Positions 16 to 20,799 of a stretch of 22,073 bases of DNA are shown here, one piece after another. Each line of letters begins with the position of its first letter. The stretch's first letter is position 1. This DNA is from a virus. The translations under genes were made by a program, and so were the position numbers. The stretch lies in IMG/VR virus record IMGVR_UViG_3300030110_005288, positions 1-22,073 of that record; one strand, written 5' to 3'. The notes beneath the pieces were generated by a model. The model made no database searches. It was not told the origin of the DNA and saw nothing but the letters and a program-made list of their open reading frames with translations.

Positions 16-1626
16 TCATCTTCTAGACATTTGCATTAACCTTTGCCCGCCTTTTACTTGACCACGTGGTTCAGGAAGAGGCTCTCCTGTGTTAGGATTT
101 ATACCATAAGGAGCTTCGACTTCAGTTTCAGTTTCAGTATCTGAAATTTCTTCGGTACCTGCTGTAGGCGTACCTTGACCCATATCCATTAATCTAGGTT
201 GACTATCAGCATATTGTTGCATAGTAGCTTGCACTTCTGGGTTATTCATATCAGCAGTATCACTATAATCCATTCCTGCACCTGCTGTACCTAGTGGTGC
301 TGCAGGAGTTTCAACTGCAGTATCTACTGCTTCTTCGCCCCCACTACCAAACATTGCTTCTGCACCCGTACCTAGTGCTGCACCTTGTAAGGCATGTTTA
401 CCTACCGGTGCTTGAAAAAATGATTTAGCTTTTTGTCCTTTGGGTGCTTCTAAACCAGTTTTAGCGGCCCCACCTAAAGCTTTTCCTAAAGCAGCTCCAC
501 CTATTGTCCCAGCTGGGCCTAAAAGACTACCTGCTGCGCCTCCTAATGCTGCTCCAGCCAATGGTAAAGCTCCCTTTGCTAACCTTGATAATACACCTGG
601 TTTTTTGGGTGGTACCGGAGCAGACGCACTAACGGTTTCAGTATCTTTTACCTCTTCTACATCTTTTACCGGGCCTCTTGCAGCTGCTGACATTCTATCA
701 GCTAAACCTTGATCTGTTGCTGCTGCTTGAGCTTGAGCTTGAGCACCTTGTTTTTGTTGGTTAGCCATTTGCTGCATCAACTGAGAAAACATTTGCATTT
801 GTTGTCGCATTTGTTCCTGTTGTGCATCTGACTGAGCTTTTTGTTGTGCAGACATTGCAGCTTCTTTAGCTTCCATGTCTTGAATAGTTTTTGCAAGCTG
901 ATCATTTTTATCTTGCATATCACGCATTTGCTGCTGTTGTTTAATCTGAGCAGCAGTTGGTTGGCCCTGCTGCGCTTGGAGCTTTTTTATTTGAGCTTCC
1001 TGATCTCTTAACTGTTGTTGTTGTTTAATTTGAGCTGCGTTTGGTTGTGCAACATTGCGTGATGCTGGAATCGCTACTTCTGTATCTGTAGTAATTGTTT
1101 CTGTTGCTCCGCCTCCTTTTATATTTGCGTTATTAGCAGCAAAAATCTCACCGGTATCAAGCTTAACTTGTGTTGTACCCGGAGCAGATGCTTTACCTGT
1201 TAAAGTAGCATTTCTTGGACCTCTTTTAGTATTAACAATTACCGTTTCGGTTTGCTCTAATAATATATCGCTTTCGTATAATAAAATATCGGCACATATA
1301 CTTTCAAAAATAGTTTTTACGCTTTCATAAGCATCTCTATCTGAAACACTTTTAGTAGATTCTTGTAATATATCAAAAGCTTGTTTATTAGATAATTGTG
1401 TATTCTCGTTAACTAATCCAGGAGAACCTATATCATACATTTCTCTTAGTTTAGTTTTATAGAGTTCAAAAATATATTTTATTTTAATATTTTTTAGAGG
1501 TGCGAGATGATCGTTATTTTCAATAACATATTCAAAAAATTCTTTATCTCTTTTAAAGGATTCACCGGGTGTTACATCCCATGAACCTTGATAACTTTCA
1601 AAAATAGTGCGGATATCTTTATCCAT
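16..1626 (-). CDS. Gln-rich coiled-coil protein with glycine zipper, likely internal virion protein
   Basis: I do not recognise a family for this 536-residue protein. Residues 1-125 are helical and begin with a leader ending in IFE at 8-10; the same TIFES string recurs at 105-109. Residues 133-170 look like a small KOW/SH3-type beta module. Residues 195-300 are Gln/Ala/Met-rich coiled coil with an internal duplication (AAQIKQQQQ at about 197 and 225). Residues 345-391 form a glycine zipper of GxxxG and AxxxG spacing, a type often seen in membrane-inserting segments. The tail is acidic, Pro-rich and probably disordered. It has its own late promoter motif 5 nt upstream of the ATG and no Shine-Dalgarno. 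The coiled coil plus zipper suggests a virion protein that is ejected or touches membrane, but this is inference; a tail or baseplate component is an alternative. Confidence 0.75.
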   Translation of the reverse strand: MDKDIRTIFESYQGSWDVTPGESFKRDKEFFEYVIENNDHLAPLKNIKIKYIFELYKTKLREMYDIGSPGLVNENTQLSNKQAFDILQESTKSVSDRDAYESVKTIFESICADILLYESDILLEQTETVIVNTKRGPRNATLTGKASAPGTTQVKLDTGEIFAANNANIKGGGATETITTDTEVAIPASRNVAQPNAAQIKQQQQLRDQEAQIKKLQAQQGQPTAAQIKQQQQMRDMQDKNDQLAKTIQDMEAKEAAMSAQQKAQSDAQQEQMRQQMQMFSQLMQQMANQQKQGAQAQAQAAATDQGLADRMSAAARGPVKDVEEVKDTETVSASAPVPPKKPGVLSRLAKGALPLAGAALGGAAGSLLGPAGTIGGAALGKALGGAAKTGLEAPKGQKAKSFFQAPVGKHALQGAALGTGAEAMFGSGGEEAVDTAVETPAAPLGTAGAGMDYSDTADMNNPEVQATMQQYADSQPRLMDMGQGTPTAGTEEISDTETETEVEAPYGINPNTGEPLPEPRGQVKGGQRLMQMSRR

Positions 1627-1638: not shown

Positions 1639-2274
1639 TCAATCTGTAGTGAATAAACTATTACAAAAATCCCAATTGACTACTTTAAAATAACGGTCCA
1701 TAAACTCTTTGTTAAAAGGCCCGTCATCTAAGTAATAAGCATGTTCCCACATATCATTACCAAAAACAGGTTGACCTTGACCGTTCATAATTGGGTTATC
1801 TTGATTAGGAGTAGTGATCACTTCAAGTTTGTCTTTATTTTTGACTAACCATACCCAACCACTTCCGTATATGGAAGTACCTTTATCAACAAATTCCTTT
1901 CTGAAATTACTAAAAGAACCAAAAGTAGATTTTATTGCTTTTCCTAATTCCATTTTAGTTGTTAAAGTTGAACCACCGGGGGTCATAAACTTCCAATATA
2001 ATGAATGATTATAATACCCTCCTGCATTATGATTCACTTTTGCATCATACTTCTTAATATTTTTTAAAAGTTCGTGAATAGGTGGTTTAGGTCTGTTACC
2101 AAGTGCTTCATTCAAATTTTTAGTAAAATTACGATAGTGAACATCGTAATGAAATTTCATTGTCTGTTTACTAATATGGGGTTCCAAATCTTTAAATGCA
2201 TACCCAAGTTTGTCCATATAATATTTGGACGTATTTGCTTCTAAAATTAAATCTGCGTATTTTTCAAAACTCAT
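1639..2274 (-). CDS. sodA: Mn-type superoxide dismutase with an N-terminal leader
   Basis: Fe/Mn superoxide dismutase, converting superoxide to oxygen and hydrogen peroxide. Both halves of the fold are present. Metal ligands can be placed as His42 (FHYDVH), His90 (NHSLYW), Asp174 and His178 (DMWEHAYY). Position 86 is Gly where iron enzymes have the active-site Gln, and a Gln appears in the later NQDNP segment (Gln158), as in manganese enzymes, so manganese or cambialistic use is predicted. The enzyme core starts near residue 18; the first 17 residues, containing DLILE, are an extension absent from usual bacterial enzymes and resemble a T4 capsid-targeting leader. The ATG overlaps the upstream gene's stop (ATGA), with AAAGGTGG nine bases upstream as ribosome binding site. 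The family is certain; packaging is inference. Confidence 0.95.
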   Translation of the reverse strand: MSFEKYADLILEANTSKYYMDKLGYAFKDLEPHISKQTMKFHYDVHYRNFTKNLNEALGNRPKPPIHELLKNIKKYDAKVNHNAGGYYNHSLYWKFMTPGGSTLTTKMELGKAIKSTFGSFSNFRKEFVDKGTSIYGSGWVWLVKNKDKLEVITTPNQDNPIMNGQGQPVFGNDMWEHAYYLDDGPFNKEFMDRYFKVVNWDFCNSLFTTD

Positions 2275-2745: not shown

Positions 2746-3741
2746 TTATTCCCAGGCATCGTCCCAGTACCATCCCCAGGAGTCATACATTTTAGGTTGC
2801 CCGAAAGGGTCTCCCATATCTCTTAGATTCCATTCGCGAACATATCGACCTATACCACCACCCATCCAACCTTTCCATGGGTGGGTATTAGGATCAGGAT
2901 AAACGGCTCTATCTTGTAACCATTTAATATCTCTATTGTTTGGACTTAATACTGTATCCAAACTTGTATTAGGGTTCTTAACGTGTTCTGGTATATTTTT
3001 AGTGATCTCTTCTAACCATCTTCTAAACTCGACATGACCATCAGTAAAAGATACAACTGATCCATTTACATGATATATACCTGGCCAGTCCATAGAAAAA
3101 ATAGACTCTTTACCTTTTAATGTTGGTACAATTCTAAAGTTACCTGCATTTATTGATTCAGCTGGCATCTCAATAAAAGTAAACATCTTACTTGGATCAT
3201 TTACATCTGCATATTTATGATGTACTTTGTATTGATTATCATGCATAAAAGGCCATCCTGACCAACCACCCATAAAGATATTCATACTATAAGATCGAGC
3301 ACGCGATACTGTTGTAGTATTATTAGTATCACCAGGATACGGAGGAACCATTCCCCATCTCTCACCGTCCCAAGTTACTGTAGACTTATCTTGAGGACAT
3401 TTATATATACCTTTACCTGCATATTCAAATAAAGGAGACCATATTAAAGATCTTTCAGTTTGAGCCCATTTACTCCATCTACTATCACCTGACATACTAT
3501 CAGCTACCCATGCTCTTGGGGCAGTAGGTTCGTTGTGCCAAGCTGACGCATATGCTATTTTATCATCTGAATCTATTGCCAACTGACTCATAGCATAGTT
3601 TAACTGCTGTTGATTAGAAATACAAAGAGCTTTAGATGCAGACTGTTTTGACTTAGCTAAGGAAGGTAATAATAAGGCGGCTAGAATTGCTATAATAGCA
3701 ATAACTACTAGTAATTCAATTAGACTAAATGCCTTTTCCAT
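2746..3741 (-). CDS. Pseudopilin-like protein with prepilin leader and H-X9-DG motif
   Basis: A 331-residue protein with a type III prepilin leader: MEKA, predicted cleavage before Phe5, Glu at +5, then one hydrophobic helix (residues 5-27) that would anchor it in the inner membrane before assembly. The rest matches the large PulG-like proteins abundant in Verrucomicrobiota, Lentisphaerota and Planctomycetota: YKCPQD at 113-118, RSYSMN at 149-154, and His224 followed nine residues later by Asp-Gly (234-235), the H-X9-DG signature. In hosts such proteins are substrates of type II secretion or type IV pilus machinery. It stands alone between phage genes, with a late promoter motif six bases upstream of the ATG. 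It probably came from the host lineage; whether it enters host pseudopili or sits on the virion cannot be told. Confidence 0.9.
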   Translation of the reverse strand: MEKAFSLIELLVVIAIIAILAALLLPSLAKSKQSASKALCISNQQQLNYAMSQLAIDSDDKIAYASAWHNEPTAPRAWVADSMSGDSRWSKWAQTERSLIWSPLFEYAGKGIYKCPQDKSTVTWDGERWGMVPPYPGDTNNTTTVSRARSYSMNIFMGGWSGWPFMHDNQYKVHHKYADVNDPSKMFTFIEMPAESINAGNFRIVPTLKGKESIFSMDWPGIYHVNGSVVSFTDGHVEFRRWLEEITKNIPEHVKNPNTSLDTVLSPNNRDIKWLQDRAVYPDPNTHPWKGWMGGGIGRYVREWNLRDMGDPFGQPKMYDSWGWYWDDAWE

Positions 3742-5347: not shown

Positions 5348-6097
5348 CTATACTTTTAATGCCATATCCCATACTAATAAATGCAATCTAGGACTAAAGT
5401 TAAAATGGTGCTTTTTAGCTAACTCAGCAACCATTGGAGCAACTTCAATATGTTCTTTTCTACTACCCGCACAAGGCATTAGCCAAACTCTACCTGTTGG
5501 TATATCAAACGGGTCAATATACTTTTCAAATATTTCATCTAAGTCAGATTCTTTACTAACCACAAACTTAAATCCTGAGTTTTGCATTGCATGCCATTCT
5601 AACACTGCAGGTTTATATCTTCTATCTTCTGGGTCACCATTATTACTAAGCTTAGGCGATGTTGTAAATGTAGCATCAAGTCTAACCCATTCTTTATCTG
5701 GCATAATTGTTGCGTTCGTTTCAAAATCAATACGTGGAACCCAACCCCATTCAATATCCATATGTTCTATAAATCTTAGTAATGCTGGTTGTTGCACTAA
5801 CGGCTCCCCACCTGTAATTTTTAATATTGCACCATTCTTAAGATGATCAGTATGACCTTGTTCATCTAACATGCTAAGAATTTCATTATTTGTCATTTTA
5901 TTCTTAACACTCCATGAAATAAAACTATCACACCCATGAGGTGAATCTTCTGAAGCAAATCCTTGACAAGTAAGATTGCACATTGATAATCTCATAAAGA
6001 CTGAAGGATACCCAACATATTCACCTTCACCTTCAACGGTATAAAATACTTTATCATCACTAAGAAACATCTTTGAATCGCCTAAACTCATATACAT
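5348..6097 (-). CDS. queE: 7-carboxy-7-deazaguanine synthase QueE (radical SAM)
   Basis: QueE converts 6-carboxy-tetrahydropterin to 7-carboxy-7-deazaguanine with S-adenosylmethionine and a 4Fe-4S cluster. Visible are VFYTVEGEGEYVGYPSVF (17-34), the usual QueE N-terminus; cluster cysteines Cys40 and Cys44 in CNLTC; and KITGGEPLVQQP, the SAM-binding GGEP motif. The third cysteine appears to be Cys56 (CDSF), giving Cx3Cx11C rather than the classical Cx3Cx2C; QueE is known to tolerate inserts in this loop. The start could also be Met3 or Met10, since homology begins near residue 16. It is divergent from phoH across a 44-base spacer and leads a unit with the DUF1796 and glycosyltransferase genes. 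With queD and folE2 it supplies phage 7-deazaguanine or host queuosine synthesis. Confidence 0.92.
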   Translation of the reverse strand: MYMSLGDSKMFLSDDKVFYTVEGEGEYVGYPSVFMRLSMCNLTCQGFASEDSPHGCDSFISWSVKNKMTNNEILSMLDEQGHTDHLKNGAILKITGGEPLVQQPALLRFIEHMDIEWGWVPRIDFETNATIMPDKEWVRLDATFTTSPKLSNNGDPEDRRYKPAVLEWHAMQNSGFKFVVSKESDLDEIFEKYIDPFDIPTGRVWLMPCAGSRKEHIEVAPMVAELAKKHHFNFSPRLHLLVWDMALKV

Positions 6098-6879: not shown

Positions 6880-7049
6880 TTATCTTTTTCTAATTCTAAT
6901 AACTCCTTCATTGCAGCTTCCGGGCCTACAACATTAAGACCCGGAAGCTCTTTTTCTTTATCCTCAAAAGGCTTACCTATTTCAGCCATTTTTGAAAAAA
7001 CATCCCCTGCTAATTTTTCAATTTTAGGGTCTTTTTCTTTTTTTATCAT
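6858..7049 (-). CDS. Small hypothetical protein, coupled to queD
   Basis: 63 residues, charged, helical, no recognised family. The ATG shares its first base with the last base of the queD stop (TAATG), and AAGAGG just upstream can act as ribosome binding site, so it is probably translated by coupling. The 3' end overlaps the convergent phoH gene by 22 bases, and codons around residues 35-45 also encode the stem of the phoH terminator, which constrains both. The context is the best argument that it is real. Confidence 0.6.
   Translation of the reverse strand: MIKKEKDPKIEKLAGDVFSKMAEIGKPFEDKEKELPGLNVVGPEAAMKELLELEKDNQISDNT
6915..6959 (+). terminator. Rho-independent terminator of phoH
   Basis: The 10-bp stem AGCTTCCGGG / CCCGGAAGCT (6915-6924 with 6940-6949) has a 15-base loop and is followed by a T-rich run (CTTTTTCTTT). 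It lies 35 bases after the phoH stop, inside the convergent 63-residue gene. Confidence 0.75.
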
Positions 7050-7870
7050 TAGCCTCTTTTAGGTGCATATGGATCACCCTTAATATCAGCTCCCCAACTT
7101 GTTCCTGCAAATGGGTCTGCTGGGTTATTTGATTTAGGACCTGCACCTACACGAGCACCTATAGGTTTATTTTTATCTCTTGCAGCACCAGGTAAATTGC
7201 GTTGTTCTTCCTCATGATCTGCTTGAGTTTTAGGACCTTCAGCAGGGCCACTTTCTTTTACCACTTTAGGTTGATCAATAGGATCATTTGATTCACCTAA
7301 TTCATGTAAAGGTGTTGATTTTATAAAATCTTTAGGATCTTGTTGCGGTCCACATGCTTCTGCTTCTCTATATGCATCCCAATCAACCGCATCTAACGGT
7401 ACGTCGTCATTAGCAAAAATAGTTTTTTGTACTAATCGATTAGTATAAGTTGCACTATTCTTATCATGTTCCCAAACCTCAACCTTTTCTACCCAACATC
7501 TATCTTCTGTAGCAGCTTTAATAAATGAATCAGCAATATCAAATACATATTGAGCTGTTTTCTCAATACCCACACCGGACATTACTCTTAAATCAATAAC
7601 ACCAAGTGAATCGAGTTCTTTAAATTTTTCTAAATATGGGTCATCCTTATCAATACAAGTTGTATGATCAAATTGGTTTTCTAATTTTTCTTTTAAACCT
7701 TTGAGACTACCAAAATCTACCACCCAGTTATTCTCATCTAATTTATTTGCACCAAACCAAAGTTTTGATTGTAACCTATATCCATGAAGAAATCTGCAGT
7801 GTGACTTAGCTTTAGGTTGTCTGAAAGCACAACTACCTAACTCAATAATTTTTGTACTATTAAAGCTCAT
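7049..7870 (-). CDS. queD: QueD-like 6-carboxy-tetrahydropterin synthase with a long tail
   Basis: QueD/PTPS-fold enzyme that would convert dihydroneopterin triphosphate to 6-carboxy-tetrahydropterin, upstream of QueE. Recognisable are CAFRQPKAKSHCRFLHGY (14-31) with catalytic-type Cys25, VVDFGSLKG, FDHTT, a GIEKTAQYVF helix and VEKVEVWEH. The zinc site is unusual: the usual HGH is His29-Gly-Tyr31 and the usual first His (AAHRL) is absent, while His24 adjoins the Cys. From memory, this AFRQ...HGY version occurs in marine phages and relatives. The domain ends near residue 150; the remaining 120 or so residues are Pro/Gly/Asp-rich and probably disordered, which is unusual for QueD. It is third in a unit with two hypothetical genes and coupled to the 63-residue gene. 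Confidence 0.85.
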   Translation of the reverse strand: MSFNSTKIIELGSCAFRQPKAKSHCRFLHGYRLQSKLWFGANKLDENNWVVDFGSLKGLKEKLENQFDHTTCIDKDDPYLEKFKELDSLGVIDLRVMSGVGIEKTAQYVFDIADSFIKAATEDRCWVEKVEVWEHDKNSATYTNRLVQKTIFANDDVPLDAVDWDAYREAEACGPQQDPKDFIKSTPLHELGESNDPIDQPKVVKESGPAEGPKTQADHEEEQRNLPGAARDKNKPIGARVGAGPKSNNPADPFAGTSWGADIKGDPYAPKRG

Positions 7871-7907: not shown

Positions 7908-8396
7908 TTAAAGTGAAGTATTAATTTCTCTTTCCATAGGTGTATTGCCATACTCATCTTGATCACCTTTTAATTGTTGGAAACCACCTTTAGCTTCTTC
8001 GTTTTCGCTTTTTCTTTTTTTCTTTTTAAAAGGCCTTGGACAAGGTGTTCCTTTTACATGTACATGTCCACAACGACCACATAGAGTAGCTTTTTTAGCC
8101 TTTTCAATAACCATTTTACCTACATATTTTTTAGCAATTTCATCCATTTTAGATAAAGGAAGAGTAAGTTGGTCTTTATCATCCTTACTTTTTTTATCAA
8201 TAATTTGCTTTAAAAGTGATACCTCATCATTAGTTAACTCGTATGTTTTGTTGTTTATTTCAACCGTTACTGTTTCTTCATTCTCTGCAGTATTCAAAGC
8301 AATAGCAACTGCCTGCTTTTGAGGATAACCTTCTCCTTTTAGCATAGAAATATTTTTTCCTATTATTTCGTCTGTTTTTCCTTTTTTAAGCGGCAT
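7908..8396 (-). CDS. Hypothetical protein with phage MPLKKGK N-terminus and Cys/His knuckle
   Basis: 162 residues, no assigned function. Residues 1-36 ([16 protein letters not shown]...[11 protein letters not shown]) match a short motif that recurs at the start of many phage proteins. The middle is helical and charged. Cys106, Cys109, His111, His113 and Cys119 form a small CxxC-HxH-C cluster that could bind zinc, followed by a basic KKKKRK stretch and a polar tail. It overlaps the upstream gene by 11 bases and has no clear Shine-Dalgarno, so translational coupling is likely. The gap to queD is 37 bases. Confidence 0.7.
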
Positions 8397-8838: not shown

Positions 8839-9918
8839 TCAATTTTCATAATTAATAATGTCTAATATAGTGGTGTAGAATGGCTTTTTACCCATAGTAT
8901 GACAACAAGGTTCATCTTCTTTATCATGAGACCATGCATCAAACCAAAATAAGTTATAATTATACACTTCAGCGATAATACTATAAAACGGTTCCTCAGT
9001 AAAAGGGTGAGCATCAGTATTATCTGTAAAAATATCAAGTAATTCCATATAAAGAGGAAATATTACTTCATCTAATTCTTTAAAACTTCCCCCAAATATA
9101 GTACCAACCGTCCACGCAGGGTATTCGCACTTTATTGGAGATTTTACATTTTTAACTTTAGGTTCTTTAACTTCAAATACTCGTTTTTCGGGATCTTCAC
9201 AGTCATATTGACCACCAACTTTCCAATCAAATTTATCTTTTAATACTTTTGATACAAAACGTTTATTTTCTTTCCAGTCATATTCTGCAAGTCTATCATT
9301 CGAACAACCTTGTGTTAAATTAAACCATTTTTTATCTTTCCATATACGCTTTAAACCATTTGTAAATTTGGGGGTAAATATGTTATTTTTATTTTTTGGA
9401 TAATAATGCGAATCGGGGTATTTTTCTCCCATAGCACCATTCATACTATACACATATTCTGCCCCACCTAATGATACTGGTACTTTACACCATTCTGTAA
9501 CACCAGCGTCTATCCACACTACTTTATCGCAGCCCCATTCATTATCTTTTGCTCTTCTACACCATTCAAGTTTCCAGTGACATAAGAGTTCGTTCCTTGG
9601 AGCAAATAAGTATCTATTACCATCGTCTTTTCCATCTTGAAGTTTATGCCAAACAAACTTATTTTTTGTCTCTAATATCTCATAAGATCTTGGCCATTCA
9701 AATAAGTCTAATCCTATCACTTTAAATTCTTTAAAATGACGCTCTACTATTTTTGTTAATAACTCTACTCTCCATGGCCAGCAATATAAATGCATAGGCA
9801 TGCCTAAATTAGAGAGATTTTTTAATGAAGTTTCATATAATTCTTCGTCATTATCTTTACCCCCTACAAGCCAATCAGATCTTGAATCGTATACACAGGT
9901 AACTAAGATAGGTTTCAT
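8839..9918 (-). CDS. HtrL/YibB-like glycosyltransferase
   Basis: 359 residues resembling the HtrL/YibB family of putative glycosyltransferases. The N-terminus MKPILVTCVYDSR is a first Rossmann-like strand, RNELLCHWKLEWCRRA fits the family's helix, and VVWIDAGV (133-140) takes the place of the DxD motif. The C-terminal part (FGGSFKELDEVIFPLYMELLDIF) resembles the family's acceptor-side segment, ending in ...HTMGKKPFYTTILDIINYEN. The start overlaps the sulfotransferase stop by four bases (ATGA), so the two probably act together on a glycan. Donor and acceptor are unknown. Confidence 0.7.
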   Translation of the reverse strand: MKPILVTCVYDSRSDWLVGGKDNDEELYETSLKNLSNLGMPMHLYCWPWRVELLTKIVERHFKEFKVIGLDLFEWPRSYEILETKNKFVWHKLQDGKDDGNRYLFAPRNELLCHWKLEWCRRAKDNEWGCDKVVWIDAGVTEWCKVPVSLGGAEYVYSMNGAMGEKYPDSHYYPKNKNNIFTPKFTNGLKRIWKDKKWFNLTQGCSNDRLAEYDWKENKRFVSKVLKDKFDWKVGGQYDCEDPEKRVFEVKEPKVKNVKSPIKCEYPAWTVGTIFGGSFKELDEVIFPLYMELLDIFTDNTDAHPFTEEPFYSIIAEVYNYNLFWFDAWSHDKEDEPCCHTMGKKPFYTTILDIINYEN

Positions 9919-10526
9919 AGTAATGATTTATATCCAAAATTGGTAAAATCATCTATATAAATGTCATATAAAAATTTTTTACTTTTTTCGGATAGTAAAG
10001 GTAAACAGGATTTAGAATTAAGATTTGATTTATTAATGTGAGGTAAACCTATAGGTATATTAAGATCTTTGCACATTTTATTAAATCCCCTTTTTAACGA
10101 TTCAAATTTTAATACAAAATCATAGTTTATATCTTCAAAATAAGTGCTTTGAGGGAGTAAGTGATCACATTTAGATAAAGTAAATTTACACCACCATTCA
10201 TAAAAATGATTATCATTAAATTCTGTTACTTCTTGTTCTCTAAAGAAATATTCAGAAATAGCTCTGGTATAAGGATTTCTAACTATTGTAAATTTTTTAT
10301 AAAGTTTGTAAAATTCACCATAATACTCTTTTATTAAGCTAGGTGTAAAGTGTTGCGGAGAGAAAATTAGATCGCTATTTGTTTCTTCGCAGAAATATTT
10401 TAATTCTTCATATCTAAAGCATGCATTTAAATTATTATCCGATATATTAAATTTTTTGAGAACAGAAGTACCACCACACTTAGGAATATGAACAAATAGT
10501 AAATTATGTTCATGAATAAAAGGCAT
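9915..10526 (-). CDS. Sulfotransferase family protein 1
   Basis: 203-residue PAPS-dependent sulfotransferase fold. LLFVHIPKCGGTS (9-21) is the 5'-phosphosulfate loop and KFTIVRNPYTRAISEYFF (78-95) the 3'-phosphate segment with its Arg and Ser. It would transfer sulfate from PAPS to a carbohydrate or other hydroxyl acceptor. No membrane segment is seen, so it should act in the cytoplasm. It is first in a two-gene unit with the HtrL-like glycosyltransferase, with a late promoter motif five bases upstream. It differs clearly from the second sulfotransferase at 16882, so the pair is not a recent duplication. Confidence 0.85.
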   Translation of the reverse strand: MPFIHEHNLLFVHIPKCGGTSVLKKFNISDNNLNACFRYEELKYFCEETNSDLIFSPQHFTPSLIKEYYGEFYKLYKKFTIVRNPYTRAISEYFFREQEVTEFNDNHFYEWWCKFTLSKCDHLLPQSTYFEDINYDFVLKFESLKRGFNKMCKDLNIPIGLPHINKSNLNSKSCLPLLSEKSKKFLYDIYIDDFTNFGYKSLL

Positions 10527-10577: not shown

Positions 10578-11621
10578 ATGTCCGATAAAAATAAAAGTTA
10601 CGAATGGTTAGGTGAGGATGATGAACTTACTGGAGAAAAAGACATTATTGCTCAAGAAATAATGGGCAATGAATTTAGTAAGAGTTATTATCCACCAATT
10701 CGAGTTTATGATAGAACGGTAAAAGCTGATAAAAAATATATTTCTTCTTTACCCGATCTTCAAAATGGACCTTCTAGTTTAATTCAAGGTGCAGCAGTAC
10801 CTATTCAACAAGTAGGTATTCATAATTTTAAATTACCTCTCAATTATAAAAAGAGAAACGGTAAAACTATAGAGCTAGAAACAAGCGTTACTGGTAGTGT
10901 TAGTTTAGAAGCACATAAGAAAGGTATTAACATGTCTCGTATTATGAGAAGTTTTTATGATCATAAGGACGAAGTATTCAGTATTAGTAAGATTAAAGAC
11001 GTGTTAGAAACATACAGAAAGAATTTAAAATGTTTTGACTCTCGTATAATGTTAAAGATATCCTACCCTATTAAGCAAAAAAGTTTGCGTAGTGGGTTGG
11101 AAGGTTATCAATATTATGATGTAGTTTTTGAAGGAGATCTAACTAAAGATGGTGAATTCAAAAAATATATTCATTTTGATTTTGTTTATTCATCTGCATG
11201 TCCATGTAGTTTTGAATTAAGCGAACATGCTGAAAAATATCGTAATAGAGCAACTGTTCCGCATAGTCAAAGAAGTGTAGCTCGTGTTAGTGTTAAGTTT
11301 GATGAAATGCTATGGATCGAAGATCTTCAAGAGTTATGCTTAGAAGCTCTTCAAACTGAAACGCAAGTTATGGTAAAGAGAGAAGATGAACAAGCATTTG
11401 CAGAAAAGAATGGATCTTATCTTAAGTTTGTAGAAGATGCAGTAAGGTTAATGTATGAAAAGCTTTCTAGTGAATCTCGTATTACAGACTTTAAGATTGT
11501 AGCTTCACATAATGAAAGTCTTCATAGTCATAATGCAGTATCGGTTATTGTAAAAGGTGTTGAAGGTGGCTTTACTGCAGGTGTACCTAGAGACGTATTT
11601 GAATCAACAGGTTTGAGATAA
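10578..11621 (+). CDS. folE2: GTP cyclohydrolase type IB (FolE2)
   Basis: FolE2 makes 7,8-dihydroneopterin triphosphate from GTP, the entry step for folate and 7-deazaguanine synthesis. Family blocks are clear: [29 protein letters not shown] with the catalytic Cys, [41 protein letters not shown] and [12 protein letters not shown]. Length (about 347 residues) is somewhat longer than typical bacterial FolE2, mainly at the N-terminus. The ATG at 10578 is preferred over the TTG at 10575. It is followed after 24 bases by an unknown gene with its own promoter motif. With queD and queE it gives three consecutive steps to 7-carboxy-7-deazaguanine; queC is not in this window. Confidence 0.93.
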
Positions 11622-12608: not shown

Positions 12609-12615
12609 TATTTAA
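12609..12615 (-). promoter_or_regulatory. Late promoter motif of the membrane protein
   Basis: TTAAATA, then ATCTC, then ATG on the minus strand; 5-nt spacing. It overlaps the end of the upstream oxygenase gene. Confidence 0.45.
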
Positions 12616-13349
12616 TAAATGTGATGCGTTAATTGATCAGGACTACCAGCAGCACCTCTTATCATTACGTTAAATGATAAAGTTACTCTAAATTCGTCTT
12701 TATTCTCTTGTTGAGGAAAATAAGGGGTTGCTGCATGTCTAAGCCATGATGGAAAAATAACCATCATGTTTTCTTTAAGTTCGGGTTTAACACTCGGTGT
12801 ATAATAGGGTGAACCTCTTTCACTTACAGAAGGAGCAATAACAAAATTTTGATTTAATGGATTAAAAAATGTCGTGCCTCCTAAATTTGTAGTTACACCG
12901 TTATGTGGTCTTACAGAAGGGTCTCTTATACATACAACACCACTTAAAAAGCTATTAGGGTGAAAATGTTCAGGGTTAGTACCATTAGGTCTATATATAT
13001 TAGACCACATTAAACTAATATCGTAAGTCTCTACATTTATTTTGGTGTGTTCTTCCCAGTTTCTACAAGCTTCAAATATAATATCATTAAAAAAAGCAAA
13101 TTCTTCTTTTGTTTGAAGATTAGGTGTAGATTGGTAGCTAGAAACACCGGAATTTTTACAAAACCCTAATAATACATTTAAGTCGAGTACTTTATGATCT
13201 GCTTTATAATGGGTATCAGGATCATCGCAATTATTTTTATATTCCTTTGTAATTGCTTTTTCAAGTTTTTTAATAGATTTTTTATCTATTGTATTAAATT
13301 GAAAAGGAACCGGAAAAAGGTCTATTACTTCGTGTTTTACTATACCCAC
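12612..13349 (-). CDS. 2OG-Fe(II) oxygenase (2OG-FeII_Oxy_5 type)
   Basis: 245 residues of the putative 2-oxoglutarate-dependent dioxygenase family widespread in marine phages. The N-terminus VIDLFPVPF is typical. PEHFHPNSFLSGVVCI (126-141) supplies the first iron His (His128 or His130), FPSWLRHAATPY (199-210) the distal His205, and FRVTLSFN (220-227) the Arg that would hold 2-oxoglutarate. The segment TTFFNP (159-164) stands where the family usually has an F.DPR-like sequence. The enzyme may hydroxylate a protein or nucleic acid; the substrate is unknown. The start is GTG, just after the upstream protease stop, with TTAAATC five bases before it. It is last in a unit with the MscS-like, Hc1-like and protease genes. 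Confidence 0.85.
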   Translation of the reverse strand: MGIVKHEVIDLFPVPFQFNTIDKKSIKKLEKAITKEYKNNCDDPDTHYKADHKVLDLNVLLGFCKNSGVSSYQSTPNLQTKEEFAFFNDIIFEACRNWEEHTKINVETYDISLMWSNIYRPNGTNPEHFHPNSFLSGVVCIRDPSVRPHNGVTTNLGGTTFFNPLNQNFVIAPSVSERGSPYYTPSVKPELKENMMVIFPSWLRHAATPYFPQQENKDEFRVTLSFNVMIRGAAGSPDQLTHHIY

Positions 13350-13357
13350 TACAAGAT

Positions 13358-13807
13358 TTAATCTTGCTCGTATTCTTTATCAACGTCAATTAGTTTATCA
13401 ATTTTAGATAAGAATAATTTACCTATTAAAACTGGGTATTCATTTTCGCTTCTATCAGCAATTGAAAATGGTACGTCTTTATATTCTTCATCACCAAGTT
13501 TAATGTCAAATAAAACTACCGGTCTATCTTCTTTAACCCCTGAACCGATATGGATGATAATTGTATCGACAACTTTTTTCTTTAGCTTTTTACCACCTAT
13601 CGTTTTTACAATAATATTATCGCCTCTTTTACTGACGACCTCACCGTTTATAACATTATATGCTCCATTACCGGAATCTATTTTAGCATCTACTTCACCT
13701 ATATCTTCTATATAAATTTTTTCTACTAAACCTACAATATCATCATCGTCAACGTTTATTTCTTGAACGATGTACCTACGATATATTTTTGAGAAATTGC
13801 TAATCAT
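13358..13807 (-). CDS. Retropepsin-fold protease of the RimK-associated (Zn_protease) family, with leader
   Basis: 149 residues matching the family annotated as ATP-dependent zinc protease, which has a retropepsin-like fold. VDAKIDSGNGAYNVI (39-53) holds the D-[ST]-G active-site motif at Asp44, and EDRPVVLFDIKLG...VPFSIADRS...YPVLIGKLFL (94-133) is the second family block. Homology begins near residue 24 (IVGLVEKIYI); the residues before it (MISNFSKIYRRYIVQE) form a leader with VQE at 14-16 like those on several other proteins here. The gene overlaps the Hc1-like gene by eight bases. A single DSG per chain implies a dimer, as in retroviral proteases. Its substrate is unknown. Confidence 0.82.
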   Translation of the reverse strand: MISNFSKIYRRYIVQEINVDDDDIVGLVEKIYIEDIGEVDAKIDSGNGAYNVINGEVVSKRGDNIIVKTIGGKKLKKKVVDTIIIHIGSGVKEDRPVVLFDIKLGDEEYKDVPFSIADRSENEYPVLIGKLFLSKIDKLIDVDKEYEQD

Positions 13808-15141: not shown

Positions 15142-15402
15142 TTAGTTAGAATGGGGAGTCAGGGGCTTGCGTAAGCGAGCCCTTTTTTTATGGGTCGTGT
15201 TTTTCCCCGGGTCTTCTTGTTTCTGCTGGGGGATTTTGGGGTGGTCGTCCGGGTACCGGTAAAGGTCTAGAAGGTGGTGTGGGTCTAACTCTCGGTGTAT
15301 ACGGTTCAGATGATCTATCTCTTTTACGTCTTGAATCATGCCTATGATGATGGTGATCAACAACATAAACAGTATGGCTAGTATGATGAATATGTCCTCC
15401 AC
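15142..15402 (-). CDS. Possible overlapping inner-membrane gene (spanin-like), low confidence
   Basis: An 86-residue frame starting at GTG and lying mostly inside the lipoprotein gene in another frame. Residues 4-23 (IFIILAILFMLLITIIIGMI) would be a transmembrane helix, followed by a charged, helical then basic segment: the layout of an Rz-type inner-membrane spanin. The nested partner is a Pro-rich lipoprotein, as in lambda Rz/Rz1. Against it: the hydrophobic run arises partly because His codons (CAT) read as Ile/Met in the shifted frame, and the start has no well-placed ribosome binding site. Confidence 0.3.
   Translation of the reverse strand: MEDIFIILAILFMLLITIIIGMIQDVKEIDHLNRIHRELDPHHLLDLYRYPDDHPKIPQQKQEDPGKNTTHKKRARLRKPLTPHSN
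15163..15189 (+). terminator. Rho-independent terminator of the barrel gene
   Basis: The 8-bp stem GGGCTTGC / GCGAGCCC (one T-G wobble) has a GTAA tetraloop and is followed directly by seven T. It begins 27 bases after the stop codon. Confidence 0.88.
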
Positions 15403-15478
15403 AACAATGATCTGATTCTACTACTTCCCAATTAGCACACCCAGTAAAAAGCAAGACTATTGGGATTAGTATTCTCAT
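15188..15478 (-). CDS. His- and Pro-rich lipoprotein (possible outer-membrane spanin)
   Basis: 96 residues. The N-terminus MRILIPIVLLFTGC is a short lipoprotein signal with lipobox FTGC; Cys14 would be acylated. Residues 24-47 hold ten His plus two adjacent Cys (DHCCGGHIHHTSH...DHHHHRH), which could bind metal ions. Residues 48-57 are basic and 60-96 strongly Pro-rich. A small Pro-rich lipoprotein is typical of Rz1-type spanins, but the His cluster is not. The ATG overlaps the upstream stop by four bases (ATGA) with GGAA just before it. It is last in the unit of three Cys-module genes and ends at the T-run of the barrel gene's terminator. Confidence 0.7.
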   Translation of the reverse strand: MRILIPIVLLFTGCANWEVVESDHCCGGHIHHTSHTVYVVDHHHHRHDSRRKRDRSSEPYTPRVRPTPPSRPLPVPGRPPQNPPAETRRPGEKHDP

Positions 15479-15738
15479 TTTTTCCAGTTTACCCTCTTAG
15501 GTCCTTTTTTCTTATACATCTTTCCTTTTATACTCTTACAAGCTGATTTGGTAGGTCTACATGCTGGATAGCTGCCGCCCGACTTTTTAGATTTACGACC
15601 ACAAGGTCCCCCGGTTTTACAATTTACCCAACCGGAAAACTTTTTACCAGTTTTTGGGTCCTTTCCGCCTCTTTTAAACCATTGATGTAAATTATCTGAA
15701 GCTTCGTAAAACTGTTTAAATGTTATTTTTTCTTCCAT
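15475..15738 (-). CDS. Basic Cys-rich small phage protein (DUF5872-like)
   Basis: 87 residues. After the leader MEEKITFKQFYEAS (FYE at 10-12) comes a compact basic module: GGKDPKTGKKFSGWVNCKTGGPCGRK, then YPACRPTKSACKS and MYKKKGPKRVNWK. The PCGRK...YPACRPT pattern resembles DUF5872, known from phages and large DNA viruses without a function. Four Cys could bind zinc or form disulfides. AAAGGTGAT two bases before the ATG is a good Shine-Dalgarno. It overlaps the upstream gene by 16 bases and the lipoprotein gene by four. Confidence 0.78.
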   Translation of the reverse strand: MEEKITFKQFYEASDNLHQWFKRGGKDPKTGKKFSGWVNCKTGGPCGRKSKKSGGSYPACRPTKSACKSIKGKMYKKKGPKRVNWKK

Positions 15739-16172
15739 ATATCACCTTTACGACATCTAACTATCGCTCCAGACTTATATGCAGATGTTTTACCACCATA
15801 TACAGAATCAGCTTTACGTTTGCAGCGATCTTCTGCTTCTTCTTCATTATCTTCATCATGCTGAAGTTTATCTATTTTACGAGTCAGCATTCTTTTGTAT
15901 TTTTCAACTGAGCCGTAATTTTTTTCTGCATGTCTTTTATCAGGATTTGCTCTTAAAGCTTTTAAACTTTCTATGTCCTTTTGTCTATCTGTTTTTTGCT
16001 CTTCACCTTCTTCGCCAGGTATTGCTTCATCAGTGTCAGCAGTAGAGCCAGTGTAGGTATCATCTTCTGGGTCAAATGTATCGCCGTGTTGGTTTTGAGT
16101 TTGCATATTAAGAACACCACGGTTATATTCTTTTAACAAACTATCTATTTTACTATTAAATTTTATATTCAT
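15723..16172 (-). CDS. Acidic/basic hypothetical protein with SAYKSGAIVRCRKG module
   Basis: 149 residues. The leader MNIKFNSKIDSLLKEY has LKE at 13-15. Residues 25-60 are acidic and probably disordered, 60-110 are charged and helical, and the C-terminus (RCKRKADSVYGGKTSAYKSGAIVRCRKGDIWKKK) is a short two-Cys basic module that, from memory, recurs at the ends of marine phage proteins. Function is unknown. It starts one base after the preceding gene's stop, with TTGGTAAT before the ATG. An internal virion or DNA-binding role is inferred only from the leader and basic tail. Confidence 0.75.
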   Translation of the reverse strand: MNIKFNSKIDSLLKEYNRGVLNMQTQNQHGDTFDPEDDTYTGSTADTDEAIPGEEGEEQKTDRQKDIESLKALRANPDKRHAEKNYGSVEKYKRMLTRKIDKLQHDEDNEEEAEDRCKRKADSVYGGKTSAYKSGAIVRCRKGDIWKKK

Positions 16173-16173
16173 A

Positions 16174-16476
16174 TTACCAATTTTTACAACTTAAATATCG
16201 AGCTGTTCCTGGTTTAGCTGAAGAACATTTATGTCTTGCTCTAAAGCTTTTACGTCTTTTAGGGTTGCTCTTTTTAATTCGTCTCTTTGGGTCTCCGTAG
16301 TGTATCCGTTTGTATCCCTTACCGGAAGGATTCTTTACACACTTCATATACTTCTTACTATCCAAGTAAGAGCTAGCTTGTTTTGTTACCTTAGTGCATC
16401 GAGATCCTTTCTTTTCTAAAAGATCCATATAATCCCAATCGTCTTCACAAAGCATTAATATGTCATCAAAAGTCAC
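16174..16476 (-). CDS. Small basic protein with SFRARHKC...SCKNW module
   Basis: 100 residues from a GTG start. The leader MTFDDILMLCED has LCE at 9-11. The rest is very basic with Cys27, Cys46, Cys84 and Cys97; residues about 63-100 (GDPKRRIKKSNPKRRKSFRARHKC...ARYLSCKNW) form a module that I recall from C-termini of many marine phage proteins, function unknown. The GTG is supported by a late promoter motif five bases upstream. It is first in the unit of three Cys-module genes plus the lipoprotein, and divergent from the 130-residue gene. Confidence 0.75.
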   Translation of the reverse strand: MTFDDILMLCEDDWDYMDLLEKKGSRCTKVTKQASSYLDSKKYMKCVKNPSGKGYKRIHYGDPKRRIKKSNPKRRKSFRARHKCSSAKPGTARYLSCKNW

Positions 16477-16499: not shown

Positions 16500-16892
16500 A
16501 TGAATCGAGACGTTCGCAATCTACAAAAGTTAATGGAATCAGGAGGTCTTGCTTTTAATAGTGGCCCACATTGGGGAGACTTTGCAGATTACCCACAATC
16601 TAATGTTACTGTATTGAAACCAAGCGAAAAAGACGAAGAAGAAGATGACCCAAAATCTATTATATATAGTTTTATAGATAGTGAATTACAAAAAGCAAAA
16701 GGATATCTTACTACCGGTAAACACGGTGATATACCCGACTTTAAAGCTAACGTTATCGACAGTATTAACAGAGCATTAGCACCGTTTTCTGATATTATCA
16801 CTGATATGAATTTAGAAAGTGAAATATCTGATTATATAGAAAAATCTATTAATATGTTAACTGGAAGAAGAATACAAAACCCTATGAGGTAA
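16500..16892 (+). CDS. Hypothetical protein, acidic
   Basis: 130 residues, no family recognised. It begins MNRDVRNLQKLMESGG, with LME at 11-13 as in the leader pattern, then SGPHWGDFADYPQ, an acidic stretch (EKDEEEDD, about 43-50) and a helical C-terminal domain (60-122) ending in TGRRIQNPMR. The start is supported by the promoter spacing. It is the only plus-strand gene in this part and its end overlaps the convergent sulfotransferase gene by 11 bases. Confidence 0.7.
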   Translation: MNRDVRNLQKLMESGGLAFNSGPHWGDFADYPQSNVTVLKPSEKDEEEDDPKSIIYSFIDSELQKAKGYLTTGKHGDIPDFKANVIDSINRALAPFSDIITDMNLESEISDYIEKSINMLTGRRIQNPMR

Positions 16893-17529
16893 ATTTATAG
16901 TTAAATTTTTCTATTTCATTTTTAGAAACAGCTTCTACCATTTCTTTAGATTCATTATCATACCATTCTGAATAGTGTTTTGGGTAAGTGAAATTAAAAA
17001 TATTTTTATGTTCTTTTGAATTGTTAACATCAGGTAAAGTGTTCCTGTTATAATTAAATCTATCACATAATTCATCCCAACTATCTTGCAATTCTTCAAA
17101 TTTAAACATTTTATCAATTTTAAATTCGGGGTCTTTAAAAGTATAATTTTCTTGAGGGTCGTATTTGTTTTCTAAATACCATTTAAAATTTTTCCAATCT
17201 AAAGATTGCTGATAACCATCTAATTTTAAAAATTTGTCTTTATGAATCCAATGAAAATAATAACTTAATGCATGAGACCAGGGATTTCTTACATAACAAA
17301 ATTTGTAATAACTCATTAGTGTATCAAATTCATCTTTTGTGTTTTTATCTGTTTTTAGCATAGAAAAACTACCATGCATTCCTAGATAAAATTCCCAATA
17401 TTCTCTTTCTATAGTTTCGGGTGTTTCGTGTTTAAATCTTTCATGTCTAGACATTGCTAAATGAATAGCAGTACCACCAGTTTTTGGGATATGAAAGAAA
17501 AGTGCCTTATGGTGATGATTAACGTTCAC
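16882..17529 (-). CDS. Sulfotransferase family protein 2
   Basis: 215 residues. KALFFHIPKTGGTAIH (8-23) is the 5'-phosphosulfate loop of PAPS sulfotransferases and YKFCYVRNPWSHALSYYFHW (75-94) the 3'-phosphate segment. MFKFEELQDSWDEL and a late ...PKHYSEWYDNESKEMVEAV helix are typical of the bacterial and phage members. The start is GTG, three bases after the stop of the nucleotidyltransferase gene; a run of His (NHHH) near the N-terminus is not a family feature. It is expected to act in the cytoplasm on a carbohydrate or lipid-linked acceptor. It is far in sequence from sulfotransferase 1. Confidence 0.85.
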   Translation of the reverse strand: MNVNHHHKALFFHIPKTGGTAIHLAMSRHERFKHETPETIEREYWEFYLGMHGSFSMLKTDKNTKDEFDTLMSYYKFCYVRNPWSHALSYYFHWIHKDKFLKLDGYQQSLDWKNFKWYLENKYDPQENYTFKDPEFKIDKMFKFEELQDSWDELCDRFNYNRNTLPDVNNSKEHKNIFNFTYPKHYSEWYDNESKEMVEAVSKNEIEKFNYKFTS

Positions 17530-17532
17530 ACA

Positions 17533-18162
17533 CTAATTTATCGTAGTGGGAAGGCTTGTCAATAATTGATATACTTCATCTACAACTGTTTTATTATCTC
17601 TCAACCTATCAGGTATATAAGGTAATAAATCTTCAATTTGCAAATTATCTAATTTATTTCTGATATCAGATGCACTTAATGGTTTGTCGCCTCCTACAGT
17701 TGAAAATACATCAATATCAAATTCTACACCCTCAGGGGCATATTTAGCGGCATTTTTATATCTTGCTGCATCTTCACCTTTACCACCCACACCTAATATA
17801 ACTTTGTCTCCAGGTTGGGTTCTTTCTGCAAAATAATCATAAACAAACTTTACTGGAGCAGGGTCGGTTAAAAATGTTATATTTCTTATATTTTCGTTTT
17901 CAGCGTATATTTCAAATATTTTCTTTGCTACATCAGCGGGTATATATTTTCCTGAATCTGTAGTTCTAATACTTTTTGGATTTTGTGGATCACTTATAAC
18001 AACTATTACCCTGTCTGCTTTATCAGCATAATTTTTAAACATTTCAAAATGCCCTTTATGTGGTGGTTTAAAACTACCTGGCACAAGAGCAACTGTTCTA
18101 AAGTTTACATCTTTATCAGGTATATCTTGTTCACCAAGAAAGAACTGTTTAAATGTTTTCAT
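17533..18162 (-). CDS. HxGH nucleotidyltransferase (cytidylyl/NMN adenylyltransferase-like) with leader
   Basis: 209 residues. VALVPGSFKPPHKGHFEMFKNY (24-45) is the first strand and HxGH motif (His35-Lys-Gly-His38) of the cytidylyltransferase superfamily; KPLSASDIRNKL (160-171) corresponds to the ISSTxxR nucleotide-binding motif. Such enzymes join a nucleotide to NMN, phosphopantetheine, glycerol phosphate or similar; the substrate here is uncertain. The conserved fold starts at residue 23, and the 22 residues before it (MKTFKQFFLGEQDI...) look strikingly like the T4 internal-protein leader MKTYQEFIAEA, with LGE at 9-11. It has a late promoter motif six bases upstream and leads a unit with sulfotransferase 2. 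Confidence 0.85.
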   Translation of the reverse strand: MKTFKQFFLGEQDIPDKDVNFRTVALVPGSFKPPHKGHFEMFKNYADKADRVIVVISDPQNPKSIRTTDSGKYIPADVAKKIFEIYAENENIRNITFLTDPAPVKFVYDYFAERTQPGDKVILGVGGKGEDAARYKNAAKYAPEGVEFDIDVFSTVGGDKPLSASDIRNKLDNLQIEDLLPYIPDRLRDNKTVVDEVYQLLTSLPTTIN

Positions 18163-19464: not shown

Positions 19465-20799
19465 CTATCTTTCTGCATTACCACCGGTTGCTCTACCCGG
19501 TCCGGGGTATTTGGAGTATGGAGTACCTCCTGGGTCTTTAGAACTTGCAGCATAATTTACTGCTTGAGCATTTGGGTATTCCATTCTACCACCACCGTAA
19601 TTTATACTAGGGGCAGATTGATCATCTTCATCAGTAGATCTAAATCTACTTGTCATCCCATCTAAAATAAACCTACCCGTTATTTTATAAGGTGGGTTAG
19701 TTGGTATAACAATTCCTTCATGACCACTTGCTTTTCCTAAAATAGATTCGTAATTTTCTAGAAGTTCTTCTCCAAGTCTAACAGTGGCATGATACATCAT
19801 AGCACCATTAACTGCTGTTTCAATATCTGATTCTTGATATATTTCATCTAAAGGTTGTTCACCCAGTACATTCATATAATTTTGTTTACTTACAGCACCA
19901 ATTCTTCTCCCTTCATTTGTAGTAATCATGGCCTCGCGAGGATTTTTTGCATTATCTAACCAAACGTTTAAAGGTTGTGTAACATCTTCTCCTAAAGAAA
20001 AGTTCACAGTAAAGGGTTCTGATAAAATTTTATTAAAATCAGGTCTACCTGTTGATTTTACAGGGGCACTAGTAATGACATCAAAATTATATTCTTTAGC
20101 AACAGGTTCTATTTTTTCTTTTAATTCTTCTAAAGCATCTTTGTTATAAGCAACTGGTTTAGAAGACCCCTTTTCAAGTTGTTCTTGACCTGTAATTTGA
20201 TTTTTAGTGGTTTGTCTTTCCATACCAGGTCTTACCAATTCACCTTGTCTGTTATATTTTTCTAAAAATTGATTTATACCATGTAAAGCTAAAAAGTCTT
20301 GATCACCATAATCTATAACATTAGTGTGGCCTTGAACAAATTCAGCATTTATAAATTTTGTTGGATCGTTATATAAACCCAATTTTTCTAACTCAGGTCT
20401 AATAGTAGGTAAGGCTTGATTAAAAATAGATAGAATTATTTTCCCGCTATTAACCATTCCATGAGGTGTACCATCTTTTGTTATAAATCTGTCTTCTAAT
20501 TTATCTACGGTAACACCGTTTACGTCTAATTCAGACATGGAACCTCTGTCTAAAGCAAATTGTTTATTTCCAAATTCATCTGTAATAACTTTTATACTAA
20601 CATTTGTTCCATCAATTTTTATAGACCCACCCTCATCGTCTAATATATCAACTGTTTCATCAAATTTACGTATTAAATCATTCCCTGATCTAACATCTGG
20701 TAAATCAAATGGGTGAGCCATATGACCTGCAGCACCCCCCTCGTTAACCAAAACTCCTTTAGTATAACTTTCAAATATTAATTCATGTTCAAATTTCAT
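19465..20799 (-). CDS. Nucleic-acid-ligase-fold (covalent nucleotidyltransferase) protein with leader
   Basis: 444 residues. Motif I of ATP-dependent DNA/RNA ligases and capping enzymes is GSIKIDGTNVSIK, with Lys61 as the adenylated residue; FALDRGS gives the conserved Arg85; FINAEFVQG is a motif III candidate (Glu153); HEGIVIP (360-366) is motif IV and PYKITGRF (370-377) motif V with Lys372. The nucleotidyltransferase domain carries a long insert between motifs III and IV and no recognised accessory domain; the last 60 residues are Gly/Pro-rich and disordered. The N-terminus MKFEHELIFESY has IFE at 8-10, followed by the phage segment GGAAGHMAHPFDLPD. The start overlaps the upstream stop (TAATG). 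It could be a DNA or RNA ligase. Confidence 0.75.
   Translation of the reverse strand: MKFEHELIFESYTKGVLVNEGGAAGHMAHPFDLPDVRSGNDLIRKFDETVDILDDEGGSIKIDGTNVSIKVITDEFGNKQFALDRGSMSELDVNGVTVDKLEDRFITKDGTPHGMVNSGKIILSIFNQALPTIRPELEKLGLYNDPTKFINAEFVQGHTNVIDYGDQDFLALHGINQFLEKYNRQGELVRPGMERQTTKNQITGQEQLEKGSSKPVAYNKDALEELKEKIEPVAKEYNFDVITSAPVKSTGRPDFNKILSEPFTVNFSLGEDVTQPLNVWLDNAKNPREAMITTNEGRRIGAVSKQNYMNVLGEQPLDEIYQESDIETAVNGAMMYHATVRLGEELLENYESILGKASGHEGIVIPTNPPYKITGRFILDGMTSRFRSTDEDDQSAPSINYGGGRMEYPNAQAVNYAASSKDPGGTPYSKYPGPGRATGGNAER

Follow-up and report, generated by a model that had tools for sequence, protein, structure and literature searches.

What do small, strongly basic, cysteine-containing proteins encoded by a tight cluster of genes do for the phage that makes them? 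The question is raised by the 22,073-base virus record IMGVR_UViG_3300030110_005288, the whole of which (positions 1 to 22,073) is called the window below. Three of its ORFs, A, B and C, run head to tail on the minus strand, A and B overlapping by 16 bp and B and C being separated by 1 bp; a fourth, D, lies on the same strand but elsewhere in the window (Table 1). Each of the four ends in a different short basic Cys module with 2-4 Cys, named after its ORF, and the predicted mature parts are 36-79 aa long, with a pI of 10.0-10.8 (10.5 for A) and a net charge of +21 for A, +8 for B, +25 for C and +17 for D. A preliminary description of this DNA had reported three packed genes plus D, each encoding a basic protein with characteristic motifs and 2-5 Cys, and all of this was borne out: the ORF coordinates are exact, the spacing is tight, every quoted motif is found in the four ORFs, and the proteins contain 4 (A), 2 (B), 5 (C) and 5 (D) Cys. 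Pfam and PHROG searches with the four window proteins alone returned weak matches at most.

The reading that we consider likely is that A-D of this marine phage are precursors of basic Cys modules that would be targeted to a T4-like prohead, released by a gp21-type protease, kept among the DNA and ejected. That is, a short N-terminal capsid-targeting sequence would bring the precursor into the prohead core, and the gp21-type prohead protease would cleave after [L/I/V/F/M]-x-E, taking off the leader; where a carrier domain or another module precedes, the protease would cut at the module boundary too. The products would be strongly basic peptides of about 35-80 aa with Cys pairs, located among the packaged DNA, which they would probably neutralise and organise and with which they would be ejected. 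In compact phages in which a gp21-type protease was not detected, the same units would be made directly as separate small genes.

Table 1. Features of the window in order of position; an arrow (↓) marks a predicted or candidate cut site.
Feature	Coordinates	Strand	Remarks
536-aa protein	16..1626	-	leader MDKDIRTIFE↓S, PWM 4.7
Fe/Mn superoxide dismutase	1639..2274	-	Pfam Sod_Fe_N/C; leader MSFEKYADLILE↓A, PWM 6.7
ORF D, 149 aa	2271..2720	-	leader MTRFSKRCKELLE↓, middle domain of about 79 aa, then module D
Module D	2274-2444		residues 93-149
Internal site of ORF D	about 2445		KKLNE↓NYADG, after residue 92
Prepilin-type protein	2746-3741		N-terminal methylation motif (PF07963); SFTDGHVEF motif
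QueE-like protein	5348-6097		Fer4_12/radical-SAM
PTPS/QueD-like protein	7049-7870		PF01242
ORF with further basic Cys unit	7908..8396	-	no N-terminal leader; N-terminal 40 aa match phrog_2423
Sulfotransferase-like protein	9915-10526		by eye
FolE2	10578-11621		PF02649
2OG-Fe(II) oxygenase	12612-13349		PF13759
Putative ATP-dependent zinc protease (match)	13358-13807		PF05618; possible leader YIVQE↓I
ORF with N-terminal membrane helix	15142-15402		overlaps next ORF in other frame
Lipoprotein-like ORF	15188-15478		lipobox LFTGC
ORF A, 87 aa	15475..15738	-	leader MEEKITFKQFYE↓ predicted as capsid-targeting, then module A
Module A	15478-15702		residues 13-87; 75-aa basic peptide, 4 Cys (GWVNC..GPCGRK..YPACRPT..C)
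ORF B, 149 aa	15723..16172	-	possible leader MNIKFNSKIDSLLKE↓ (moderate), acidic linker, module B at C-terminus
Module B	about 15726-15833		residues about 114-149; reads DRC..SAYKSGAIVRCRKGDIWKKK
ORF C, 100 aa	16174..16476	-	weak leader; candidates LCE↓D after residue 11, LLE↓K after residue 21
Module C	16177-16413		reaches C-terminus of ORF C; motifs ..SFRARHKC..ARYLSCKNW
130-aa protein	16500..16892	+	leader MNRDVRNLQKLME↓S, PWM 5.7
Sulfotransferase	16882-17529		PF03567
Cytidylyltransferase/NMNAT-like protein	17533..18162	-	Pfam CTP_transf_like 4.7e-6; T4-like N-terminus MKTFKQFFLGE↓Q, PWM only -3.5
IKIDGTN-motif protein, RNA/DNA-ligase-like by eye	19465..20799	-	leader MKFEHELIFE↓S, PWM 7.4; no Pfam match

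Scans of viral contigs yielded confirmed relatives of every module (at least 584 for C, 285 for A, 592 for D and 30 for B), and profiles built from the listed relatives found at least 532 module ORFs in their loci. Among the matches listed, 57 A loci extend for 1.5 kb or more to either side of A; in 56 of these, module B was present within 500 bp of A on the same strand, and in 43, module C within 1.5 kb of A; the background away from seed modules was under about 0.025 per kb for both B and C. When C served as seed, A was within 1.5 kb in 8 of 59 loci, and D as seed was also less often near the others, indicating that the tight cassette is A-B, with C as a frequent companion and D more loosely associated. 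Two or more modules are combined in 48 ORFs, and in many phages B and A are fused into one ORF, both orders being seen. The modules generally occupy the C-terminal position, ending no more than 25 aa from the end of the protein (C in 195 of 197 cases, D in 81 of 90, B in 114 of 125 and A in 99 of 120). The partner sequences that precede them form 62 clusters, with carrier domains that include NT5C nucleotidase, NUDIX, poly(A)-polymerase/tRNA nucleotidyltransferase, GNAT and cytidylyltransferase, and the earlier impression that the modules are interchangeable across phage proteins was thereby supported. A D-module carrier (L176) also matches a phage superoxide-dismutase family. Further basic Cys modules of like style, SIDCKNPKGFSQ[RK]AHCQGRKK, CW[DP]GYEKKG[MT]K..NCVKK and SFCARMKG (DUF6321-like by eye), were seen in L125, L130 and L131, in S-SCSM1 ORF29 and in S-CREM2 gp137 and gp160, so that the set exceeds four; a CxxCGH motif ahead of module C in L264 is similar to the additional basic Cys unit of the window.

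Among cultured phages, A was found in 353 and B in 366 records, nearly all of them from cyanomyoviruses, with an A-B spacing of 0.3-1.6 kb in genomes such as S-RIM2 and P-SSM2. A and B make up one protein in Flavobacterium phage immuto, and Roseobacter phages CRP-901/902 also carry A and B; in CRP-902, three separate genes without leaders, B, A and C, lie between the portal and major head genes. No annotated feature covers the module A ORF of CRP-902 (L004, 7950-8216) or the CRP-901 match, so that gene callers miss these small genes. In several phages the cassettes are located near terminase, portal or head genes. A tblastn search for module D in cultured phages gave no match with either the window form or a Cys-less form. 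Nor did the modules turn out to reside mainly in non-virion proteins, the finding that would have spoken against the preliminary description: a search of 84,980 cellular genomes for module C returned 45 loci. Nearly all of these are on metagenome-assembled-genome contigs, and a cellular origin of module C was rejected.

How would such proteins reach the head? Of 228 non-redundant module proteins in which 15 or more residues precede the module, 71% carry [hydrophobic]-x-E somewhere in residues 4-28, compared with 43% for shuffled N-termini (maximum 50% in 200 shuffles) and 45% for internal windows. The leader PWM, trained on module proteins of viral contigs with the window ORFs in the training pool, reads F-x-[E/Q]-[L/F/I]-[L/I]-x-E↓[S/A/N]. 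In T4, gp21 cleaves after L/I-X-E, and internal proteins have capsid-targeting sequences of 10-19 residues (PMC9026906); the leaders of the module proteins fit this rule. Set against the T4-type pattern of an N-terminal propeptide of ~7-19 residues ending in (L/I)-x-E, the candidate leader of the window proteins is strong in A (12 aa, FYE), readable in D (LLE) and B (LKE) and weak in C (LCE or LLE). The preliminary description had ascribed the same type of leader to all four proteins, which held well for A (PWM 7.7), moderately for D (3.8) and B (2.9), and poorly for C (-3.0), although C does have LCE↓D and LLE↓K. Judging from their sequences, two further proteins of the window are probably packaged as well, namely the superoxide dismutase, as an antioxidant enzyme, and the ligase-like protein, also as an enzyme. 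Homologues of the NMNAT-like protein have been detected in virions of S-SCSM1 and S-CREM2.

The window contains several other genes. FolE2, QueD-like and QueE-like proteins jointly point to a 7-deazaguanine pathway that may serve DNA modification, and the sulfotransferases and the 2OG-Fe(II) oxygenase are glycan or small-molecule modification genes. The overlapping pair of membrane-helix and lipoprotein-like ORFs directly downstream of ORF A recalls nested spanin genes. The prepilin-type protein is host-like and unusual in a phage, and may hint at a host of the Verrucomicrobiota/Lentisphaerota/Planctomycetota type.

Three aspects were absent from the preliminary description: a link to families of eukaryotic viruses, internal cut sites, and the loss of leaders in compact phages. 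Regarding the first, 27 of 43 aligned C modules match Pfam PF19058 DUF5754 (Tlr6F), with a best E of 2.8e-12; window ORF C alone has no DUF5754 match at E<=1, being below the Pfam threshold, and it aligns with family members. On this profile evidence module C appears to be homologous to Tlr6F. Likewise, all 12 fused B-A tandem proteins match PF19197 DUF5872 over both modules (best E 1.4e-7, 32.5 bits versus a curated cut-off of 27.5), the first half of the family corresponding to module B and the second half to module A; in the window, where B and A are two overlapping genes, neither alone matches DUF5872 at E<=1. DUF5754 and DUF5872 are orphan families of eukaryotic DNA viruses. Tlr6F was reported in 2015 from nearly all polinton-like viruses, several virophages, many Megavirales and some phages, its function being unknown (PMC4642659); it is also covered, without known function, in PMC12220804, and the alga virus CpV-BQ1 encodes both DUF5872 and DUF5754 (PMC12085832). 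A literature search for DUF5754/Tlr6F proteomics gave nothing direct. The AlphaFold2 model of module C (pLDDT 91) consists of a beta-hairpin and two helices, for which Foldseek found no significant match in the PDB; the archaeal chromatin protein Cren7, a weak partial match with E above 3, was set aside. The model resembles predicted phage proteins (E down to 1e-6); its resemblance to predicted proteins of Tunisvirus and Chrysochromulina ericina virus is weaker. The BA model was of low confidence (pLDDT 54), and a PDB sequence search gave nothing useful.

These relationships bear on what the peptides would do. They could be packaged and processed in the way outlined above and yet be injected effectors acting in anti-restriction or host takeover, like T4 IPI* or Alt, their charge merely letting them travel with the DNA. 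The T4 internal proteins are indeed small, basic and capsid-targeted, and IPI* inhibits a restriction enzyme (PMC3012670, PMC9026906); moreover, carriers of the modules are enzymes (e.g. NT5C, NUDIX, poly(A) polymerase and GNAT), and the diversity and reshuffling of the modules would suit an arms race. However, the A-B(-C) set has been conserved in phages that differ greatly from one another and in their hosts, and eukaryotic viruses encode relatives of C and B-A; neither is typical of narrow, fast-changing anti-defence proteins, so that an effector role is possible but rather unlikely. Broad conservation and reuse outside T4-like phages rather favour a general DNA-related role, and the charge of the modules suggests that they may bind DNA. 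By analogy with T4, the peptides may be retained with the DNA and ejected.

The second aspect concerns the boundaries between modules and preceding sequences. Nearly all D modules collected start with E↓N[FY]ADG, and the sequence upstream is variable. Boundary patterns were set by eye after viewing the alignments, requiring Glu at P1 and the following residues while leaving P3 free, and they cover 98 of 105 D, 69 of 197 C, 33 of 128 A and 12 of 152 B modules. A hydrophobic residue was found at P3, two positions before the Glu, in 58 of 74 non-redundant D boundaries (78% versus a background of 22% for the remaining Glu residues of these proteins, p=2e-22), in 37 of 38 C boundaries (97% versus 30%, p=8e-18), in 12 of 12 A boundaries (p=9e-8) and in 6 of 6 B boundaries (p=1e-3), and there was no hydrophobic enrichment at P2, P4 or P5. 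The E↓N[FY]ADG start is identical after a bare leader (L127, MKDFKSFYVE↓NFADG; L228; L203) and after long unrelated domains. In Gp23 capsid proteins of the same contigs, the matching sites QVVAE↓AN, QLVTE↓AN and WCFQE↓AN were recognised by eye near the expected propeptide end. S-SCSM1 ORF29 reads as a string of units, between which stand VSE↓G, MTE↓G, FNE↓D and again VSE↓G; in S-CREM2 gp160, LSE↓A, LEE↓K and ISE↓G stand between the units. A precedent for multi-site processing is provided by T4, which cuts gp22 and gp67 into pieces (PMC9026906). In window ORF B, a clear internal cut site immediately upstream of module B was not found.

If the modules were instead permanent C-terminal DNA-binding tags that hold carrier enzymes on the packaged genome, the sites at the boundaries would remain unused. 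Such tags would be expected to be C-terminal, as the modules are in nearly all carriers, many of which are enzymes, but a gp21-type site is conserved right at the boundary, where P3 alone is enriched, and many precursors consist of a leader and a module with no carrier to anchor, making this explanation improbable. Modules shared in many combinations across marine phages and bearing head-protease sites are most likely peptides packed in the head with the DNA, where cleavage at these sites would release them.

The gp21-type (S77) prohead protease, PF03420, was found in 16 of 50 module-bearing contigs, including 10 of the 11 with a length of at least 135 kb. For the window and its closest relatives, all of them fragments, gp21, gp20 and gp23 genes were not detected where searched; the nearest contig with a T4-type portal has a module A of 74% identity, and Portal_T4 was found on the L114 contig. 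In nine compact contigs (47-82 kb), A, B and C are short ORFs starting directly at the module, and neither PF03420 nor Gp23 was detected in these nine. In a wider compact-locus set, a leader was present in none of 81 module ORFs, a count that is not independent because the set was hand-picked partly by appearance, and none of the 48 fusions occurs there, an absence less affected by this choice. The median module ORF is 77 aa in the compact-locus set versus 155 aa elsewhere.

Are such proteins present in virions? Gp160 of the Synechococcus phage S-CREM2, which contains A-like, CW..NC and B units, is listed in the published virion proteome (PMC10665884, Table 3), and ORF29 of S-SCSM1, likewise a Synechococcus phage with a published virion proteome, has A, B, CW..NC and SFCARM units and is labelled a virion protein. 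A profile search of the complete S-CREM2 protein set found one A/B-module protein, the virion-detected gp160; for S-SCSM1 a subset of proteins was profiled, ORF29 being the module protein located by the B search. The leader PWM was run on all 219 S-CREM2 proteins, the core structural set being excluded from the 28 detected ones. At PWM >= 5, 5 of 28 virion-detected non-core proteins versus 3 of 167 undetected proteins scored positive (p=0.002), in a test with few positives and with gp160 relatives in the PWM training set. The difference held at thresholds 3, 4 and 6 (p=0.003-0.02), was not significant at 7, and was seen by rank as well (p=0.008, AUC 0.64). High scorers include the prohead protease (in the structural set), NMNAT and gp160. 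The authors of the proteome point out that abundant non-virion proteins may co-purify (PMC10665884). Gp12, gp6 and gp14 of S-CREM2 (L282), being a Cas9-like nuclease, a SAM hydrolase and a kinase, are also virion-detected; leaders of capsid-targeting type are present in gp6 (MKDFDSFLE↓E) and gp14 (MKRFDAFLTE↓E), while in gp12 a comparable FASFMAE↓A is found around residue 24. With homologues detected in virions, leaders following the gp21 L/I-x-E rule and the outcome of the S-CREM2 leader test, the earlier view that the layout is that of internal virion proteins is supported. The same sequence features and proteomes of relatives support entry into the prohead and trimming and release by the protease.

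Module A occurs with 2, 4 or 6 Cys. Cys 19 and Cys 46 are retained or lost jointly, while Cys 25 and Cys 39 never vary, and an extra CxxC..CxxC pair, DCNTCR..KCKPCGR, is present in longer forms; this pattern suggests two Cys pairs (disulfide or metal). In the D family, many members are without Cys, so that Cys are not essential there. A zinc finger as a universal explanation was rejected, A having 2, 4 or 6 Cys and D often none. The extra CxxC pairs of the longer A variants resemble zinc knuckles, but that the proteins are intracellular nucleic-acid-binding, zinc-ribbon-like regulators, not purposely packaged and with coincidental leaders, is highly improbable in view of the virion mass spectrometry of homologues, the leader and boundary statistics and the head-region gene context.

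The occurrence of Tlr6F and DUF5872 in a cassette with head leaders and protease sites, together with A/B homologues in virions, gives these families a testable role as internal virion peptides. The T4 internal-protein system, so far a handful of idiosyncratic proteins, would grow to include a large set of precursor-released modules, and the leader plus the [hydrophobic]-x-E boundary rule predicts contents of marine phage heads, including superoxide dismutase and NMNAT. A bolder extension, which we put forward as doubtful, is that the heads of marine phages contain a mixture of small basic peptides with Cys pairs, which the capsid protease would cut out of reshuffled polyproteins, and that Tlr6F/DUF5872 would be one ancient class of virion core peptide common to tailed phages, polinton-like viruses, virophages and giant viruses, with a job like that of the protease-processed adenovirus VII/mu and with peptide-DNA complexes that are locked by Cys pairs in the oxidising virion.

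Neither capsid-targeting sequences nor gp21 processing nor packaged multidomain proteins are new. In a literature search covering few subscription papers, no account was found of basic Cys modules that are reshuffled and set free from precursors, nor of Tlr6F/DUF5872 as substrates of a prohead protease; beyond T4/SPN3US reviews, no paper was found that links the prohead protease to polyproteins or to capsid targeting in cyanophages. Compared with T4 IPI, IPII, IPIII and Alt (PMC9026906, PMC3012670), the proteins described here have in common a short leader ending in L/I-x-E, a small basic mature protein and, on part of the module-bearing contigs, a T4-type prohead protease, whereas the mature sequences are unrelated and consist of shared conserved modules with Cys pairs, often several per precursor with cut sites between them, and leaderless forms exist in compact phages. 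Unlike Tlr6F/DUF5754, phage module C has two near-invariant Cys and occurs with A/B modules, leaders and protease sites; unlike the DUF5872 tandem, B and A are separate overlapping genes in the window, and phage A has 2-, 4- and 6-Cys forms. The internal proteins of phiKZ/SPN3US, which are ejected and whose propeptides are cut by a prohead protease (PMC10052503, PMC9026906), are comparable, but protease, motif and substrates differ. Polyvalent proteins (Iyer et al. 2017, PMC5512222; the word cyanophage is absent from its text) are likewise carriers with several domains, among them NUDIX, GNAT and ParB-like ones; packaging and injection have been predicted for them, and some are processed before packaging (P1 DdrB, for which an in-chain metallopeptidase was proposed; PMC5512222). 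They are defined by two or more effector or enzymatic domains; A-C have one module each and D has one unknown domain plus a module, and the relatives L221, L202 and L183 would qualify. Unlike in polyvalent proteins, the sites described here match a T4-type prohead protease and would release conserved basic Cys modules.
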